Part shown: piece by piece, positions 6,107 to 23,084 of the stretch | Layout: the number at the start of each line of letters is the position of its first letter | Numbering within the stretch: position 1 is the first letter of the stretch | IMG/VR virus record: IMGVR_UViG_3300011128_000178 | Span: 1-23,084 of that record | Strand: one strand, 5' to 3' | Length of the DNA stretch: 23,084 nucleotides | Source of the DNA: a virus | Position numbers and translations under genes: made by a program | Notes under the pieces: model-generated | What the model was told of the DNA's origin: nothing | The model's input: the letters and a program-made list of their open reading frames with translations, nothing else | Database searches by the model: none

Positions 6107-7254
6107 TGAAGAGCCTCGATCAACAGAGACGTGAAGCCGTTGATCTTGGTGATGTAGGCGAAGAAATCATCCCCGTTTGTGGTGGTCAGATTACCGGTCC
6201 CCGTCGTCTTGGAGAAGCCCGAGGTAGAGATCGCCCCCGCAGAGGCATTGTTGGTCACTTGGACGATTATGGTGTAGTCGCCTGACGCGGTCGGCGCGGC
6301 GAGCGTGAACGCCCCGCCGTTCACGATCCGCTTCAGATTCCCGCCAGCAGGGGCCGGGGTGTATGTGCCGCTGGACTTCGTGCCGTCGTTGTCGGCGGTC
6401 GCGGTGTATCCGGCAGTCAGATTGTCGTCGGTGTCTGCCTTGAGGATTTCCGCGTCTGCGGCTTCTTTCGCATCCAGCTGCGTCTGAATCGCACTTGTGA
6501 CGCCGTCCGTGTAGTTCAACTCCGTCACGGTGGCCGTGATGCCATCCAGCGTGTTGAGTTCTGCCGCGGTGGCCGTCAATGTGTTGTAGCTGGTCAGCGA
6601 CCAAGTCACGCCGTCCAGAATATTGAGCTCCGCCGCAGTGGATGTGAGCGTGTTGTAGCTGGTCAGCGACCAAGTCACGCCGTCCAGAATATTGAGTTCT
6701 GCCGCAGTGGATGTGACACCCAACGAACCGAGCACAGTGTTCCCGCTTTCAACGACCCATGTAGAGCCGTTGCCCACGATGAAGTTGCCGTCCGTGACGG
6801 CCAAGTCCCCGATTGCGTTAAGCGTTGAGCCCACGAGACCGGCACTGACATCCACGACCTCGGCGCCGCTACCCGCTCCGTCGGAGTAAACGACCTTTGT
6901 TTTGCCAGCAGGGATGTCGACGTTCCCGCCCGACCCTTGCGTCATCGTCACCGTTTGGTTCGATGTGTTGTAAATCGTGTATAAGCGTTCGATAGTATTC
7001 GGGTTGATCGTCACCACACAGGTGGACCCCGGAGTCCCGGTGAACTTAATCACCGAATAGTGGCCCTCGGACAAGGCGCCGGATGTCGACGTTGTCAACG
7101 TGTGCGTGGACCCGGTCAAGGCAATAGCCCCCACCTGACTCGTCAATCGATCGACGATATCCATGTTGTCGTTTACGGTGTCACCCCAGTTGCCGACCTG
7201 TTCGCCGTCCGCGGGCTTTTCGATTGCGACGTTGGTTGTGTATGAACTGGGCAT
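6103..7254 (-). CDS. Tail fibre protein with repeats and shared C-terminal tip module, 383 aa
   Basis: AGGAGA lies a few bases upstream of ATG 7254. The N-terminus (MPSSYTTNVAIEKPADGEQV followed by GNWGDTVNDN) is the familiar start of phage fibre proteins. Residues 45-170 are beta-rich. Residues 180-250 hold repeats of the AAELNxLDGVT type, of which two 23-residue copies are almost identical; such repeats form trimeric fibre shafts. A short helical stretch (QLDAKEAADAEILKA) follows. Residues 279-383 form a terminal module strongly similar to the end of the 503-aa fibre ([38 protein letters not shown]). It begins just after the spanin-like genes. A role as trimeric side fibre or receptor-binding component is inferred. 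Confidence 0.85.
   Translation of the reverse strand: MPSSYTTNVAIEKPADGEQVGNWGDTVNDNMDIVDRLTSQVGAIALTGSTHTLTTSTSGALSEGHYSVIKFTGTPGSTCVVTINPNTIERLYTIYNTSNQTVTMTQGSGGNVDIPAGKTKVVYSDGAGSGAEVVDVSAGLVGSTLNAIGDLAVTDGNFIVGNGSTWVVESGNTVLGSLGVTSTAAELNILDGVTWSLTSYNTLTSTAAELNILDGVTWSLTSYNTLTATAAELNTLDGITATVTELNYTDGVTSAIQTQLDAKEAADAEILKADTDDNLTAGYTATADNDGTKSSGTYTPAPAGGNLKRIVNGGAFTLAAPTASGDYTIIVQVTNNASAGAISTSGFSKTTGTGNLTTTNGDDFFAYITKINGFTSLLIEALQ
6581..6716 (-). repeat. 69-bp tandem repeat in fibre shaft
   Basis: Copy 1 is 6581..6649 and copy 2 is 6650..6716. They differ at only two bases before they diverge at the end. Each encodes 23 residues containing AAELNILDGVTWSL. Shorter, diverged AAELN-LDG units follow towards 6500. 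The period keeps the reading frame. Confidence 0.9.
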
Positions 7255-8311: not shown

Positions 8312-8749
8312 TTAGGCAACCTTCTGTGTCCACGTACTTCCCGGTGCAGGACTTATATCAGACCAGCCGCCGGTTGTAGAGGGGGTGACGCCGGACCACC
8401 CATCCGAGGCGCCCGTTTGCACTTCGGCCCAGTTCGCGGCCTGCGCCGGACCAATGCCAGACCAGTTGGGGTCTTGGTCTGGGAGGATCGACCCCCATAC
8501 CAGTACGCGGCCGACAGCGCCAGCGGCCGATACGCCCGTGAGCGTGAGGCTTACGCCCGTTCCCGTTGCGACGGTGACAGAGCCGACTTCACCAGTGGCC
8601 GATACGCCCGTGAGCGTGAGGGTAGCGTCCGCCGATACTGCGACAGTGCCAACAGCGCCCGTGGCCGATACGCCCGTTAGAGCGACCAGCGCATCTGCGT
8701 CGGCGAGGGCGGCTAGGGGTTCGCTCGCGAGAGGGCTGAAGCCGAGCAT
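8312..8749 (-). CDS. Repeat-containing tail/virion protein, 145 aa
   Basis: ATG 8749 has AGGAG 9 bases upstream, overlapping the end of the preceding gene's stop region. Residues about 20-90 consist of three tandem beta repeats of the type LTGVSATGAVGTVTV, each about 22-24 residues. The last runs into VWGSILPDQDPNW, and the C-terminus is built of short Trp-containing units (NWSGIGP, NWAEVQT, GWSGVTP, GWSDISP). I have seen this two-part layout in small phage tail proteins without a known function. The repeats suggest an extended beta structure, perhaps an adhesin or fibre accessory. It directly precedes the endolysin gene. Confidence 0.75.
   Translation of the reverse strand: MLGFSPLASEPLAALADADALVALTGVSATGAVGTVAVSADATLTLTGVSATGEVGSVTVATGTGVSLTLTGVSAAGAVGRVLVWGSILPDQDPNWSGIGPAQAANWAEVQTGASDGWSGVTPSTTGGWSDISPAPGSTWTQKVA
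8525..8677 (-). repeat. Three direct repeats of GGCCGATACGCCCGT in the repeat protein
   Basis: A 25-base unit beginning GGCCGATACGCCCGT occurs at 8525..8549 and 8597..8621, and its first 15 bases recur at 8663..8677. The offsets of 72 and 66 bases are multiples of three. The units encode the LTGVSATG part of each protein repeat. Confidence 0.85.
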
Positions 8750-17228: not shown

Positions 17229-18140
17229 CTAGGCTCCCGGAGAAGCGAAAACGGCACGGGGGTCACTAAAGCCGAAGCTATAGCGTTCACGCGCCTTGAA
17301 GCGCATGTTGCCCGTGTCGAAGTCGTCTTCCATGCCTGTCGACATTTTGACGCGTTCGAAGTGAACAAAGCCGCGCGGTGCGTCCGTCTTCACAAACCAC
17401 GCATCCGGGTCCGTGAGGAAGTCGTTTACCGCATATCCCTCAGGCAGCATGCCCATGGACTTCAGCGCATTCACGTCGTTGTCGGCGGTACCAACGCGGA
17501 GGTTCGAAACCATCAGGCGCTCGGCTACAAACTGCAGCTGACGCGGGAGGATGAGTTTCGTGCCGCGAAGGGCAACCTTGAGACCACGCTCGTCAACGAA
17601 TCCGGCGATGGAGATGAGCGCATCTTCCAACGAGGTTTCGTTGAGGTCCGACGCAACGGCCGGACGGTTCGAGAACGTGCCACCAGACAGGAGAGGGTGG
17701 TCGGTCGCGGCCAAGGCCTTACCGTCACCGCCAGCAGACGCACCAGCCGTGAACGCGTTGTTCAAGACTGCAGCGGCTTTGACCTGCTTGGAGTGAGCCA
17801 TCGAACGTGCGAGGGCTTTCGTGTAGCGACTGCCGAGGCGGTCGTACAGATTGTCCTCAACGGCTTCCTCGGTGATCGAGAAGGCCAGTGCGATGGTCTC
17901 GTGGTTGTACCGGGCGGTATATGCCTCGTTCGCGTCATCGAACGAGATTCCAGAACCTTCCGACTTGGTCGGCGCTGCACCAAACCCACCGAGCATCACC
18001 TCTTCTTCGAACGCGCGGTCCGAAGCTTCAGTGGTGTAAATCTCGGAATGCTGGTTGTCGTACCGGCCATATTCCATCCCAAACAGGGCGTTGAGGCCCG
18101 GTTCGAGTTCTTTCGCAAGCTGTGCGCGCGAGATTGCCAT
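17229..18140 (-). CDS. Major capsid protein (HK97-fold), 303 aa
   Basis: A strong AGGAGG lies 8 bases before ATG 18140. The sequence matches a capsid family common in phages of marine alphaproteobacteria, related to Mu gpT-type head subunits. The N-terminal helix (MAISRAQLAKELEPGLNALF) is followed by YTTEASDRAFEEEVMLGGFG, a glycine-rich E-loop-like section and ISFDDANEAYTARYNHETIA with FSITEEAVEDNLYDRLG. The spine-helix area has SMAHSKQVKAAAVLNNAFTA, and the A-domain has ALRGTKLILPRQLQFVAERL. The C-terminus is MRFKARERYSFGFSDPRAVF. No cleavable N-terminal delta domain or protease gene is visible, consistent with a separate scaffold. It is the last gene before a terminator. Confidence 0.9.
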   Translation of the reverse strand: MAISRAQLAKELEPGLNALFGMEYGRYDNQHSEIYTTEASDRAFEEEVMLGGFGAAPTKSEGSGISFDDANEAYTARYNHETIALAFSITEEAVEDNLYDRLGSRYTKALARSMAHSKQVKAAAVLNNAFTAGASAGGDGKALAATDHPLLSGGTFSNRPAVASDLNETSLEDALISIAGFVDERGLKVALRGTKLILPRQLQFVAERLMVSNLRVGTADNDVNALKSMGMLPEGYAVNDFLTDPDAWFVKTDAPRGFVHFERVKMSTGMEDDFDTGNMRFKARERYSFGFSDPRAVFASPGA

Positions 18141-18153
18141 CAGTCAGCCCTCC

Positions 18154-18789
18154 TTACACGCCGGTCGTCGAAACGGTACCGCCAGCGATGGCGCCGTTCG
18201 GCGAGTTGAAGTGGTTGTTCAAGCGAACAAGCACAGGGATACCAGCAGCGGCGAAGTCGGCGTTATCAGGGTCCTGTTGGATACCCATGACGCGCAGGTT
18301 CAGCGTGTTGGTGGTTGCGATTGTGCTGACAGCCAAACGTCCCGCCGACAAACCGGTGGTGTCATCACCCGTGGTTGCAGTCGAGAAGTTTGCGTTTGCG
18401 AAGACATGCGCGCGAGCGGTAGCCTCGTCAGTCAGCGTAGCGTCCGAGGCAATCACAAAGACCTGCATCGGATCGTCATAGACGAACGCCTTAACCGGAT
18501 AGGTCGAGTCTGCACCCGATCCCGGCCATGTGTTCGACCAGACTGTTTTGCCGGTGCTGGACGACACGTATTCGCAGCCCCAGAACACGCCAAGAAGACC
18601 CACGGTGCCGCCAGCAGCTGCGCCAACGATGTCAATGACACCGGCGGCGAGAGGCTTAACGGGCGAACCCTGATACATCTTGTTCGTGTTGCTAGACGCA
18701 ATGCGATACTCGGTCAGACCACCGGTGTTTCCGATCTGGCCCACCGTCCCTACGGGACGAAGACCGAACGAACCATTGGTGTTAGCCAT
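18154..18789 (-). CDS. Conserved head protein upstream of the capsid gene, 211 aa
   Basis: ATG 18789 follows GGAG by 7 bases. The sequence begins MANTNGSFGLRPVGTVGQIG and continues with GGLTEYRIASSNTNKMYQGS, PVKPLAAG, GVFWGCEYVSSSTGKTVWSN, and YPVKAFVYDDPMQVFVIASD. The later part reads ARAHVFANANFSTATTGDDT, LNLRVMGIQQDPDN and IPVLVRLNNHFNS. I know this pattern from a conserved protein paired with this capsid type in environmental phages. It is beta-rich and lacks a helical scaffold-like region, so a capsid decoration or head-stabilising protein is the best guess. No direct evidence of decoration is present. Confidence 0.82.
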   Translation of the reverse strand: MANTNGSFGLRPVGTVGQIGNTGGLTEYRIASSNTNKMYQGSPVKPLAAGVIDIVGAAAGGTVGLLGVFWGCEYVSSSTGKTVWSNTWPGSGADSTYPVKAFVYDDPMQVFVIASDATLTDEATARAHVFANANFSTATTGDDTTGLSAGRLAVSTIATTNTLNLRVMGIQQDPDNADFAAAGIPVLVRLNNHFNSPNGAIAGGTVSTTGV

Positions 18790-18806: not shown

Positions 18807-19271
18807 TTACTCGGAACCGCTATCGCGGCCTCCGAAAGTGACACGACTTTGCCGATCACGATGAATCGGCATCGAAGGATGTGCATCCTTCATTAAGTCC
18901 TGATCGACCGACTGCATTTGTTCGCGGGTCCGGGTCCCGTAATACGCGGCTCTTTCGTTTACAGTCTCGTCAGGCATTCGGCACAGCATCAATCCGCCAG
19001 TGCCGATAATTCCTTTGTGGCGTCCTTCCTCGATGGTCTCAGCGTTGAAGTCGGGGTATTCATCGGCACGGACAGGTTCCCAACCTTCTCGCATTCTCGA
19101 GAATGCGTTGGTTTTGTCCTCTACGTCCCGCATGGAAATCCGAATCCAGCGATGCACATACCCCTCAGGAGGAGGCGGTGATTTAAGCAGGCTGGGCGGA
19201 GCCCAAGGTTTCCTGCGCGCGCTATCTTCACGCGTTTTGTTGGAGCGGGGGGTTCTTTTTGTTTCCACCAT
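18807..19271 (-). CDS. Conserved head-module protein, 154 aa
   Basis: AAGGA lies 9 bases before ATG 19271. The N-terminal 30 residues are basic and disordered (VETKRTPRSNKTREDSARRK). The conserved part reads WAPPSLLKSPPPPEGYVHRW, IRISMRDVEDKTNAFSRMRE, GWEPVRADEYPDF, then IIGTGGLMLCRMPDETVNER, AYYGTRTREQMQSVDQDLMK and RVTFGGR. Proteins with this signature typically sit between scaffold and capsid genes in marine phages; function unknown. No catalytic motif is seen. Charge and position would allow a role in head assembly with the scaffold. Confidence 0.82.
   Translation of the reverse strand: MVETKRTPRSNKTREDSARRKPWAPPSLLKSPPPPEGYVHRWIRISMRDVEDKTNAFSRMREGWEPVRADEYPDFNAETIEEGRHKGIIGTGGLMLCRMPDETVNERAAYYGTRTREQMQSVDQDLMKDAHPSMPIHRDRQSRVTFGGRDSGSE
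18811..18835 (-). other. Stem-loop at the end of the 154-aa gene
   Basis: TCGGA pairs with TCCGA and CCGC pairs with GCGG around the loop TATC, with a small internal loop (A opposite CC). It spans the last codons of the 154-aa gene, 22 bases before the next start. No T-run follows, so a terminator is unlikely; it may be an RNA processing or mRNA-stability element. Confidence 0.45.
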
Positions 19272-19276
19272 CTGGG

Positions 19277-20176
19277 TCAGTCCTTCACGTATTTCGCGTA
19301 TTCCTCGAGAGGAACGTTAAGCTTATTGGCGATAGCGATCTGAGAAGGTGTTAACTTCACGCTCCGACGCCCCTGTGTTGTAGTGCGGGATGCAGAGGAA
19401 CTCGCAGAAGCGACCCGAGCCCCACCCGTTTTACGGTCAGACTTGAACTTGTTTGGAAACTCAGCCCTCATCCGACGATCCACCTCAGTATAGTACTCTT
19501 CGCTCTGCGGGTCAAAGCCTTCGTCTTCAACCAGTTTGCGATGAACACCAAACGCGGCATACGTCATGACTTCGTCCTGACCAAACCACGCATTCTTCTC
19601 CGCCCACGTCTGCGCTTTCGGGTCAACAGCTGGAGGTGCTTGCTGCACCTGTGGCGCAGGCTGCCTTTGCGGCGGAGGCGCCTGACGACGCGCCTGTTCG
19701 GCACGCTCCTCTTGCCGATCCGCGCGGGACTTCGCAAGGTTGTACCGATCCTGATCAGCGACCGCGCGGGACAGAGCCTCTTGAGCCGTGACAATCTTGT
19801 CGGTGTCCCCACTCTCGTGAGCATCCTTAAACAGCTGTCGGGCAGCGGCAACCTGCGCATCGGCGCGTGCTCCGTACTGATCGAGATACCCCGTGTCGAG
19901 TTGGTTGACCCGACCCCTGAGCTTCATGTTCTCCTCGCGGAGCTCTTCCGCAATACGAACCGCCTCTAGGCGGTTCCGCTCTTCGTTGCGGTACCTTTCT
20001 GTCAGCTTGTTAATCCGAGTTTTGACGCCCTTGCTGTAGTCCTGAAGCTCAGAATCTTTCGCGGCATCAGTCGGTCCCGAGTCGTCGGTAGAAGGCTGCA
20101 AGTCCTCTTCCTGAGTAACGCCTTCGGGCGCGTCAATCTCGACCTCTTGGCCGACCTCTTGGTTTTCTGTGTCCAT
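19277..20176 (-). CDS. Putative capsid scaffolding protein, 299 aa
   Basis: The start is ATG 20176 (MDTENQEVGQ), with GAGGAG at 20183..20188, 6 bases upstream; a longer in-frame GTG start would overlap the GroES-like gene by 77 bases and has no such site. The protein is typical of scaffolds. It has an acidic N-terminus (EVGQEVEIDAPEGVTQEEDL), a long charged coiled coil (about residues 50-170, with TRINKLTERYRNEERNRLEA and REENMKLRGRVNQL), a Pro/Gln-rich linker (APPPQRQPAPQVQQAPPAV), and a basic C-terminus for capsid binding (KFKSDRKTGGARV, then RRSVKLTPSQIAIANKLNV). It is encoded between portal and capsid, with no protease nearby. Scaffolds diverge quickly, so assignment rests on composition and place. 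Confidence 0.8.
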   Translation of the reverse strand: MDTENQEVGQEVEIDAPEGVTQEEDLQPSTDDSGPTDAAKDSELQDYSKGVKTRINKLTERYRNEERNRLEAVRIAEELREENMKLRGRVNQLDTGYLDQYGARADAQVAAARQLFKDAHESGDTDKIVTAQEALSRAVADQDRYNLAKSRADRQEERAEQARRQAPPPQRQPAPQVQQAPPAVDPKAQTWAEKNAWFGQDEVMTYAAFGVHRKLVEDEGFDPQSEEYYTEVDRRMRAEFPNKFKSDRKTGGARVASASSSASRTTTQGRRSVKLTPSQIAIANKLNVPLEEYAKYVKD

Positions 20177-20182
20177 TTTAGG

Positions 20183-20188
20183 CTCCTC
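20183..20188 (-). promoter_or_regulatory. Ribosome binding site (GAGGAG) deciding the scaffold start
   Basis: GAGGAG overlaps the stop codon of the GroES-like gene and ends 6 bases before ATG 20176. It supports this start over the upstream in-frame GTG 20263. Confidence 0.8.
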
Positions 20189-20669
20189 AGATATGCTTGA
20201 TGTCGTCAGGGTCCAGAATCGTCGCAATGACTTCGTCGTCATTGATAAGACGAACCTCGCCACCGTCGATCTTGAACCGGGACCCGGAGTATCGACCGAT
20301 GCAGACCCAATCTCCGGCCTTGCACCACGGTTCCCCTACCCCGAACTTATCTGGGTCTTCGTAAGCCAAGGGCCCGACTTTCAAGACGTAAGCAACCACC
20401 GTCGCCAATGCCTCACGGTCACGGACTTCGTCCGGGATGTGAAGACCTGCCGCGGTCTTCGTTTTGCCTTGATATGGCATGACCAAAACACGCCAGCCAG
20501 TAGGCTCAGGCATGCGGTCTAGGAGGGGCTTATCGAGGAGCGCGGGGTCTAACACCCGCTGGTCTTCTGAAACGTAGGCTTTTTCGAGTCCCGCGGGCGC
20601 TTTATTTTTTGCCCGGTCTTCGGCCTCGATTTTCTCAGCGACATGCTCAGGTAGTATCAAACTCGCCAT
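20187..20669 (-). CDS. GroES-like co-chaperonin, 160 aa
   Basis: The C-terminal two thirds match Cpn10. PTGWRVLVMPYQGKTKTA (about 56-73) corresponds to the first GroES strands. AAGLHIPDE (73-81) matches the mobile loop with its hydrophobic triad that docks onto GroEL. EALATVVAYVLKVGP follows, then a roof-like insertion (YEDPDKFG, 103-110), AGDWVCIGRYSGSRFKI and EVRLINDDEVIATILDP. An extra 48 residues, helical and charged, precede the domain; cellular GroES is about 97 residues, so this is extended at the N-terminus and in the roof region. Phage co-chaperonins such as T4 gp31 help host GroEL fold the capsid protein. Here the gene overlaps the small upstream gene by 23 bases and lies directly before scaffold and capsid genes, which supports that role. 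Confidence 0.88.
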   Translation of the reverse strand: MASLILPEHVAEKIEAEDRAKNKAPAGLEKAYVSEDQRVLDPALLDKPLLDRMPEPTGWRVLVMPYQGKTKTAAGLHIPDEVRDREALATVVAYVLKVGPLAYEDPDKFGVGEPWCKAGDWVCIGRYSGSRFKIDGGEVRLINDDEVIATILDPDDIKHI

Positions 20670-20856
20670 CGTCGGTATGGTTCTCCAGCAGGGACTTGAT
20701 CTCGTTCCGAATGAAGGAGAGTCCCCGAACCTCCCCCACCAGTGATTGGTATTGCTCCCAATCTTTTGCCGAGCCTGAGGACAACAAACTACTAATGTCT
20801 TGCTCGCGCTCTGCGATCAACTTGTACATATGTCGCGCAAAACTTACAACATCCAT
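20647..20856 (-). CDS. Small helical protein of unknown function, 69 aa
   Basis: ATG 20856 overlaps the stop of the Cys-rich gene (ATGA), with GGAG 8 bases upstream. The sequence is almost entirely helical: MDVVSFARHMYKLIAEREQD, SLLSSGSAKDWEQYQSLVGE, VRGLSFIRNEIKSLLENHTD, with an acidic end. The heptad-like pattern suggests a short coiled coil and oligomerisation. I recall similar proteins encoded between portal and scaffold genes in related phages, with no known function. Its last 23 bases overlap the GroES-like gene. Confidence 0.78.
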   Translation of the reverse strand: MDVVSFARHMYKLIAEREQDISSLLSSGSAKDWEQYQSLVGEVRGLSFIRNEIKSLLENHTDDGEFDTT

Positions 20857-21215
20857 CAGAAGGTCTCCCGGAAATCGTCCTGCGCGAGCGACGTAATTGG
20901 GCCTCCTTTGACCCAGTCGTCGCAGACATGATCCGACGCGCAGACAAACTTGTATATCTGGCAGTAACCCAGATCGCCGGAGTCGTCTTCGAGACAGTCG
21001 AGAATTTCAGTTGTTTGATTGTACGCGCCGCAGTTTCCGCAAAGCTCGGCCGAGCTTTCGGGAGGGTCGCGATAGTCCGCGTCCTCGACAGCGCCTTGCT
21101 TGTTCTTTGCGTTCACGTCCGAGTCCTGTGTCGGGACGGGGCATGAGGACCCTGTCTCGTACTCGTCAACAGGGATTTCTTTGGTCCCCGTTAACGTGAT
21201 CGTGATGCTGACCAT
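20856..21215 (-). CDS. Cysteine-rich putative metal/iron-sulfur protein, 119 aa
   Basis: ATG 21215 shares one base with the portal stop (TAATG) and has GGAGG 8 bases upstream. The N-terminal half is acidic (VSITITLTGTKEIPVDEYET). The C-terminal half packs six cysteines: LCGNCGAYNQ (C-x2-C), then LDCLEDDSG, GYCQIYKF, VCASDHVCDDWVKGG. The C-x2-C...C...GYC...C...C-D-W spacing recalls high-potential iron-sulfur proteins and small zinc-binding domains. It resembles proteins encoded beside portals of marine phages and sometimes annotated HiPIP-like. Metal type cannot be told from sequence. Conserved cysteines in a virion-module protein would be consistent with a structural cluster or redox sensor. 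Confidence 0.78.
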   Translation of the reverse strand: MVSITITLTGTKEIPVDEYETGSSCPVPTQDSDVNAKNKQGAVEDADYRDPPESSAELCGNCGAYNQTTEILDCLEDDSGDLGYCQIYKFVCASDHVCDDWVKGGPITSLAQDDFRETF

Positions 21216-23084
21216 TACTGCGTCCTCCGCATATTCGCCATGGCGACTCGTTGCTGAACATCGATTCGCTCTCTGTTCACAGCGTTTCGATCCCCTGCAA
21301 TCTCCTCTTGGAGCTCAAGACGAGCGGCCTCTCCTGCGGCCTTTTGCTGGAGTTTTTCTCGGTCCAATTCAATCCTCTGCATGTCCGCCATGGCGTCCTG
21401 CGCCAGCTTCTGAGCGTTCAGTTGAAGCTCCTGATTCCGTATTTGAACCAGAGGATCGGCGTTAGGATCGGGTGGTGGAGGAACCATCTGAGACATTACC
21501 TGCTCAAGCAGTTGCGCCTCAACAGTGGAGATGTACCCCTCAAGTTCTGTGGGGTCCGACATCTGTTGCTGAAGCATCATCAACTGTTGCTGCGCGGCAG
21601 GGCCGGGGAGCGCCCCCTGCATCGCCACCTGCTGAAGGTCTTGCATGATTCGCTGGGCCTCTCGCATCACTTGCTCGCGAGCAAGTAGCGCTACGTGCTG
21701 TTGAGTGTGCGCATAGAACAGAGCCGTCACCTGCGGGTCGGTCTGAACCAGCGGGGATTTAGCAGCGAGAATATGTGTTCGAATATGGGCCTCGTGGTTC
21801 TGATCCGGGAAAGCCTGTGCGGGCATCACAAGAACCATCTTGCCGTTCTCCATCGCGGCACTCTCGGGCTGCGGTTGTGGGGGTGGTGGCAGGACCTCGT
21901 CGATGTTCTGAACCTCGAGCGCCTGATACATCCGACGGTACGCCGCGTGCAGGTTGTGCATCTGCGGGTTGGACTGAGCCAGCTGTAGCTGCGTCTGAGC
22001 AAGAGACACACGTTGCGCCATCGAGAAGATGTTCGGGTCGCTGACAGGGATAATGTCGATGCGTCCGTCAAAATCGGACTGGACCACTCCGGGGACCCCA
22101 CCCTCAACCTGATACGGGTAGTTCACTGGAGCGTTCTCCGCGATCACCCGGGCGAGGATTTTGAACTCGTTTTTCTGCGCATAGTGCAGGCGCTTATGAA
22201 TCGCCGACATCACTTTCATGCCGCGCTCAAGCAGAGCCACCGTCGTGCCGACGGGGGCCTCTTGGTTCATGTTGCCCGCCTGCATGTCAGCGACGTTGAC
22301 GAAGCGGCGACCCGCCTCGACCAAGGCGCCCAGCAGTTGAGCCAGCGTTGCCGAAGGTTCTTTGTACGGCAGTGGGATGATTGCGTCACGGATGTTGCCC
22401 CCGGGAGCGTCCATGTCCCGGAACTCTCCGGGCTGCAGGGGTTCATCGCTATCACGGACACGGATGCCTTTGGCCTTGAAACCCGCCGGGAGGTTGGCAA
22501 GTGTGCCTGCGTCGATCAGCTGACGTAAAATCGATGTGGCTGCGCTGCCGATACCACCAACCATGTGAGTCAGCCCGAACCCGTAGAACCCAAGACCCGG
22601 AAGAAACTTGTAATGGGTGAAGTATGGCTTGGCTTTCCGCAGTGGGTCCGCCTCTTCATAGTTGCGACGGATCGAAAGGACAGAGTTTGAGTCTTTGTCA
22701 ATTGTGGCGATATACGGAAGCTTAATCCCCGTGGGGTTGCCTTCCGCGTCTTTGTCCTCGAAGCCCTCAATGTCGAGATCGGCGTGGATTTCGTACACTT
22801 CCCGGATATCGTCTCGGTAGGACTTCGACAGACCTTCGATGCTGTTTACGGCCTTGTCGACAGGGTCGCTGTCGTCATCTGCCGCGAAGGGCAGGTCAAT
22901 GTCTCGGTAGAACCCAGACACCTGCTGTTTGCGCAGGTCATTGTCAGTGATTTTGAGGACATGAGTTATACGTGGGCTCGAGAACAGGTCCGTCGCCGAG
23001 TACGGCACAACGACATCCTGCGCCGGAATGAAACGAGACACCTGACGCCCCATAGTCCCGCTCGGAAGAGCGTCGGGGAGGGAA
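21215..23084 (-). CDS. Portal protein, N-terminus beyond the right edge
   Basis: The frame is open from the right edge, with no stop between it and the first visible ATG at 23053, so the true start lies outside the window; 622 codons are present. The first visible section, PAQDVVVPYSATDLFSSPRI followed by THVLKITDNDLRKQQVSGFY, is internal in this portal family. It continues with KLPYIATIDKDSNSVLSIRR, YFTHYKFLPGLGFYGFGLTH, GSAATSILRQLIDAGTLANL and LLERGMKVMSAIHKRLHYAQ (the long portal stem helix). From about residue 390 the protein becomes Pro/Gln-rich (VLPPPPQPQPESAAM). It ends in long Gln/Glu-rich coiled coils (QQQLMMLQQQMSDP, EKLQQKAAGEAARLELQEE), which probably form the barrel or crown. 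Portals form the dodecameric DNA-entry ring at one capsid vertex. Confidence 0.9.
   Translation of the reverse strand, partial: SLPDALPSGTMGRQVSRFIPAQDVVVPYSATDLFSSPRITHVLKITDNDLRKQQVSGFYRDIDLPFAADDDSDPVDKAVNSIEGLSKSYRDDIREVYEIHADLDIEGFEDKDAEGNPTGIKLPYIATIDKDSNSVLSIRRNYEEADPLRKAKPYFTHYKFLPGLGFYGFGLTHMVGGIGSAATSILRQLIDAGTLANLPAGFKAKGIRVRDSDEPLQPGEFRDMDAPGGNIRDAIIPLPYKEPSATLAQLLGALVEAGRRFVNVADMQAGNMNQEAPVGTTVALLERGMKVMSAIHKRLHYAQKNEFKILARVIAENAPVNYPYQVEGGVPGVVQSDFDGRIDIIPVSDPNIFSMAQRVSLAQTQLQLAQSNPQMHNLHAAYRRMYQALEVQNIDEVLPPPPQPQPESAAMENGKMVLVMPAQAFPDQNHEAHIRTHILAAKSPLVQTDPQVTALFYAHTQQHVALLAREQVMREAQRIMQDLQQVAMQGALPGPAAQQQLMMLQQQMSDPTELEGYISTVEAQLLEQVMSQMVPPPPDPNADPLVQIRNQELQLNAQKLAQDAMADMQRIELDREKLQQKAAGEAARLELQEEIAGDRNAVNRERIDVQQRVAMANMRRTQ

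Follow-up and report, generated by a model that had tools for sequence, protein, structure and literature searches.

A GroES-like co-chaperonin in a conserved phage head operon, probably acting with host GroEL

Results

Identity of the groES-like gene

The 23,084-nucleotide virus sequence analysed here (the window; IMG/VR record IMGVR_UViG_3300011128_000178), from a phage of marine type, carries, within its head-assembly operon, a gene whose predicted product is, judged by profile matches and a structural model, a true GroES/Cpn10 co-chaperonin. We put at roughly 85% the probability that this protein serves as a heptameric lid on host GroEL late in infection, aiding the folding of new phage proteins, most likely those of the head module, such as the major capsid protein. 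It is not new, being a further member of a described family from an uncultivated relative of phage HTVC023P. An earlier note on this DNA had described a co-chaperonin linked to the scaffold and capsid genes by overlapping reading frames, and had taken this arrangement as a sign of a dedicated capsid-folding partner for host GroEL. The intact Cpn10 reading frame in the head operon, its conserved place and host GroEL as its natural partner stand, whereas the overlap with scaffold and capsid genes and the unusualness of the arrangement do not.

The gene (20187..20669, minus strand, as are all features described around it) is intact and encodes 160 residues (17.7 kDa, pI 4.9). The Pfam Cpn10 profile (PF00166) matches at 3.9e-9, with 36.9 bits against a curated cut-off of 21.1, and the match extends over protein residues 55-151, corresponding to positions 3-93 of the 93 in the profile, so that the Cpn10 domain recognised earlier is confirmed over nearly its whole length. 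The match to phrog_3188 (co-chaperonin GroES, 1.4e-14), together with a place in the head module that is syntenic with eight annotated phage regions, assigns the protein to the phage GroES family. The NCBIfam equivalog models for bacterial GroES did not reach their cut-offs (best score 42.7 bits against 96).

Predicted fold, mobile loop and roof

An AlphaFold model of the monomer, built from 46 sequences, displays the GroES barrel and mobile loop, with a mean pLDDT of 82.6 and values of about 90 or more across most of the Cpn10 domain. Foldseek returned 29 matches in the PDB at E<=0.001, those listed all being GroES/Cpn10 chains, with TM-scores by target length of 0.60-0.77 for the structural matches. 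The best matches in a viral structure library were GroES models as well, including a 155-residue protein of an uncultured virus that is 45% identical and aligned over its full length.

The barrel domain (20217..20507, residues 55-151 in profile coordinates) contains the tripeptide L76-H77-I78 within the segment KTAAGLHIPD. This segment aligns without gaps to bacterial GroES, which gives the mobile loop an ordinary length, and the KTAAG-LHI-P motif has the hydrophobic tripeptide expected in the mobile loop of a Cpn10 protein. Among the aligned homologues, Gly75 is invariant (348/348), positions 76 (I/L/V) and 78 (L/I/F/V/M) are hydrophobic in all or nearly all, and the motif KTxxG-[ILV]-x-[LIFV] is kept. 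The Cpn10 domain is under strong purifying selection, with a dN/dS of 0.046 for the domain as a whole and of 0.053 within the mobile loop, estimated in close relatives from 64 pairs that are not independent of each other.

The bacterial GroES proteins from Xanthomonas (3nx6) and Hydrogenophilus (8wuc, 31% identical to the window protein) share the barrel, a mobile loop of the same length and the hydrophobic tripeptide, but they have a shorter roof segment and no N-terminal extension. The roof insertion reported earlier is present but small, exceeding the bacterial segment by about six residues; in close relatives the roof carries the conserved motif GPxAYxDxxKF...PWC.

The N-terminal extension

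About 53 residues precede the Cpn10 domain (20511..20669), near the 48 claimed before, and, as was also claimed, this extension has no counterpart in the solved GroES chains. It comprises a predicted helix (residues 8-21), a variable linker and a conserved stretch at residues 31-53 (RVLDPxLLDKPLLERLP). In the same close relatives and non-independent 64 pairs, dN/dS is 0.147 for residues 31-53, which are conserved and constrained, and 0.40 and 0.48 for residues 2-14 and 15-30, where constraint is weak; at the start of groES the codons are shared with another gene, so that synonymous change is reduced at that end.

The length preceding the domain varies by lineage from 7 to 66 residues, with medians of about 52 in proteins resembling the one in the window, 47 in HTVC027P-like, 44 in DSL-LC04-like, 26 in CRP-902-like and 7 in Manatee-like proteins. 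The Manatee-like group retains the same order of scaffold-like and capsid genes, and since these lineages are nearly devoid of the extension, it is dispensable for the link with the head module. The suggestion that the extension could bind capsid or scaffold protein is weakened both by these short-extension lineages and by the weak constraint on residues 1-30; the extension may serve a lineage-specific role.

The head operon

The operon runs from the portal gene through two small reading frames to groES, and continues with a scaffold-like gene, two further reading frames and the major capsid gene, so that groES lies inside the head-assembly operon, as the earlier note had placed it. The portal protein (21215..23053, 612 residues) matches phrog_1216 at 7.9e-41. 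It is followed by a Cys-rich acidic protein of 119 residues (20856..21215; CGNCxxYN...C...GYC...KFxC...C), which has conserved cysteines and 49 relatives in neighbouring loci and gave no match in Pfam or the PDB; by eye, its cysteine pattern resembles that of small iron-sulphur proteins of the HiPIP type. Next comes a conserved 69-residue reading frame with no assigned function (20647..20856; phrog_32603, unknown function, 7.6e-4). A homologue of it stands just upstream of groES in 312 of the 328 loci with room for it, being present in all tested loci resembling those of the window, DSL, HTVC and CRP and absent in the Manatee-like group.

Downstream of groES lies an acidic, probably coiled protein of 299 residues (19277..20176; phrog_28737, unknown function, 2.1e-71), for which place and composition suggest a scaffold role. 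Two head-module reading frames follow, one of 154 residues with no assigned function (18807..19271; phrog_36003) and one of 211 residues (18154..18789; phrog_37556, unknown function), which from its place may be a decoration protein. The major capsid protein (17229..18140, 303 residues, 32.8 kDa) matches PF25209 Phage_capsid_4 (9e-11), PF10124 Mu gpT (3.9e-6) and phrog_371 (2.9e-24).

Stop and start codons overlap between the portal gene and the 119-residue frame, and again between the latter and the 69-residue frame, the 3' end of which runs 23 nt into groES. This is the true overlap of groES; none exists with the scaffold or capsid genes, the scaffold-like ATG at 20176 being separated from the groES stop by a 10-nt gap. 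All that overlaps the groES stop codon is a Shine-Dalgarno-like TGAGGAG.

Conservation among phages

Relatives of the protein are very abundant in IMG/VR (at least 597), and relatives annotated as GroES occur in Pelagibacter, Roseobacter, Caulobacter, cyanobacterial and other phages. Among loci retrieved through their GroES homologue, the gene immediately after groES is the scaffold-like one in 318/318 of those with room, and the capsid gene lies about 2 kb beyond groES in 156/156; because of common ancestry among the sampled loci, these counts are not independent. In the reverse search from the capsid, each of the 18 phage records whose capsid is at least 38% identical also carried GroES, a proportion that describes these capsid relatives and not phages at large. 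Two remoter viruses (28-31% capsid identity) also carry GroES, but away from the capsid genes. A large group of phages thus keeps groES strictly in this place ahead of the scaffold-like and capsid genes, and the arrangement, presented earlier as unusual, turns out to be a conserved and already described phage feature: pelagiphages of the HTVC023P type are reported to have GroES among their 13 core genes (PMC9599517), and the gene is also labelled where CRP-901/902-type genomes are compared (PMC10149686).

HTVC023P gp36, HTVC027P gp55 and the DSL-LC04 GroES are likewise extended Cpn10 proteins, with 48-53% identity over the domain. HTVC023P-type phages and DSL-LC04 share the order GroES, scaffold-like protein, proteins of about 155 and 190 residues and capsid, the capsids being 66-70% identical to that of the window (70% for HTVC023P); they differ in the sequence of the extension and in how many small genes separate the portal gene from GroES. 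The Cpn10 gene also directly precedes scaffold-like and capsid genes in Roseobacter CRP-901/902, Caulobacter RW, Alcaligenes QDWS535 and the Manatee Spring phages, but compared with the window protein the extension is shorter in the CRP group (about 23-29 residues) and almost missing in the Manatee group (7-10). GroES is common in aquatic phages, almost always by the same head genes. As a separate observation, virus L352 (BK063670.1), assigned to a methanogen (Methanomicrobiales), has groS at 1027-1383, upstream of terminase and portal genes and away from the capsid gene.

Discussion

A search for Cpn60/GroEL found none in 20 related records, each of which carries one Cpn10; the same search found it in 14 of 14 known genomes used as a control. 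A phage-encoded GroEL partner is thereby rejected for the records searched, and because these related phages encode no GroEL, the protein most likely acts on that of the host. Five genome contigs matched in a search for the host, all of them short and in unrelated metagenome bins, and no host was assigned. The partnership with host GroEL proposed earlier is the natural reading. The co-chaperonin would be co-expressed with the capsid genes late in infection and would form a heptamer (the model being of the monomer), its L-H-I tripeptide would bind host GroEL, and GroEL capped in this way would fold newly made head-module proteins, with the major capsid protein as a putative client. Gene order by itself cannot name a client, and we found no test of the client of this protein.

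The precedent is T4, where a phage co-chaperonin and host GroEL fold the capsid protein (PMC3012670; for T4 also PMC6318259). Like gp31 of T4 and CocO of RB49, which work with host GroEL and are linked to capsid folding (PMC3012670), the protein is a phage co-chaperonin, but its architecture is the opposite of that of gp31: in the latter the mobile loop is lengthened and the roof loops are missing (PMC6318259), and the window protein, with its ordinary-length loop and longer roof, has neither trait. The gp31 structure (1g31) was only a weak Foldseek match (E=0.036), with no match in sequence. Moreover, gp31 serves the 56-kDa capsid protein gp23, and the argument for an enlarged cage is not transferable to a capsid protein of 32.8 kDa. 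Loop length, roof length and capsid size thus lead us to reject an enlarged cage of the gp31 type. Since a 33-kDa capsid protein fits the ordinary GroEL-GroES cage, the benefit would probably lie in how much lid is available, or how tightly it binds, during the burst of structural-protein synthesis, rather than in the enlarged cage proposed for gp31. These phages offer a tractable case for asking why phages with capsid proteins of ordinary size keep a GroES of their own.

A broader role is plausible, though we lean against it: the protein could boost or take over from the GroES of the host in folding every phage (and host) protein, and its location in the head operon would then do no more than set late timing. 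T4 gp31 and RB49 CocO can substitute for GroES in all essential E. coli folding (PMC3012670), and the ordinary loop length and GroES-like fold agree with such a takeover; against it, the position is unusually fixed by one head module across divergent lineages, and head proteins from the same operon are the simplest clients. Conversely, strict linkage to one scaffold-like/capsid module, the longer roof with its conserved motif and the constrained residues 31-53 would suit a chaperone dedicated to the capsid in the narrow gp31 sense, where host GroES cannot fold the capsid protein and an altered roof or extension confers client specificity. We regard this as unlikely, given a capsid protein of only 33 kDa, a loop and roof opposite to those of gp31 (PMC6318259) and an extension that lineages sharing this head module nearly lack. 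More speculative still, and in our judgement improbable, is that residues 31-53 and the longer roof form a lid admitting or selecting one capsid family, a GroES variant of an architecture unlike gp31 that co-evolved with the scaffold/capsid module. The fixed place adjoining the scaffold-like gene and an extension foreign to solved GroES chains might even recall a Cpn10 turned into a structural factor that binds scaffold or capsid and no longer works with GroEL, which is very improbable given that the tripeptide and glycine of the mobile loop, the GroEL contact in known GroES, are conserved in 348 homologues under strong purifying selection.

Other features of the window

Near the left end of the window, a perfect hexanucleotide array (CTGCGC, 9.3 copies, 224-279) reads as (AQ)n or (RL)n depending on the frame. 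Reading frames of the tail region contain in-frame tandem repeats of 69 nt (6554-6716) and 66 nt (8510-8677).
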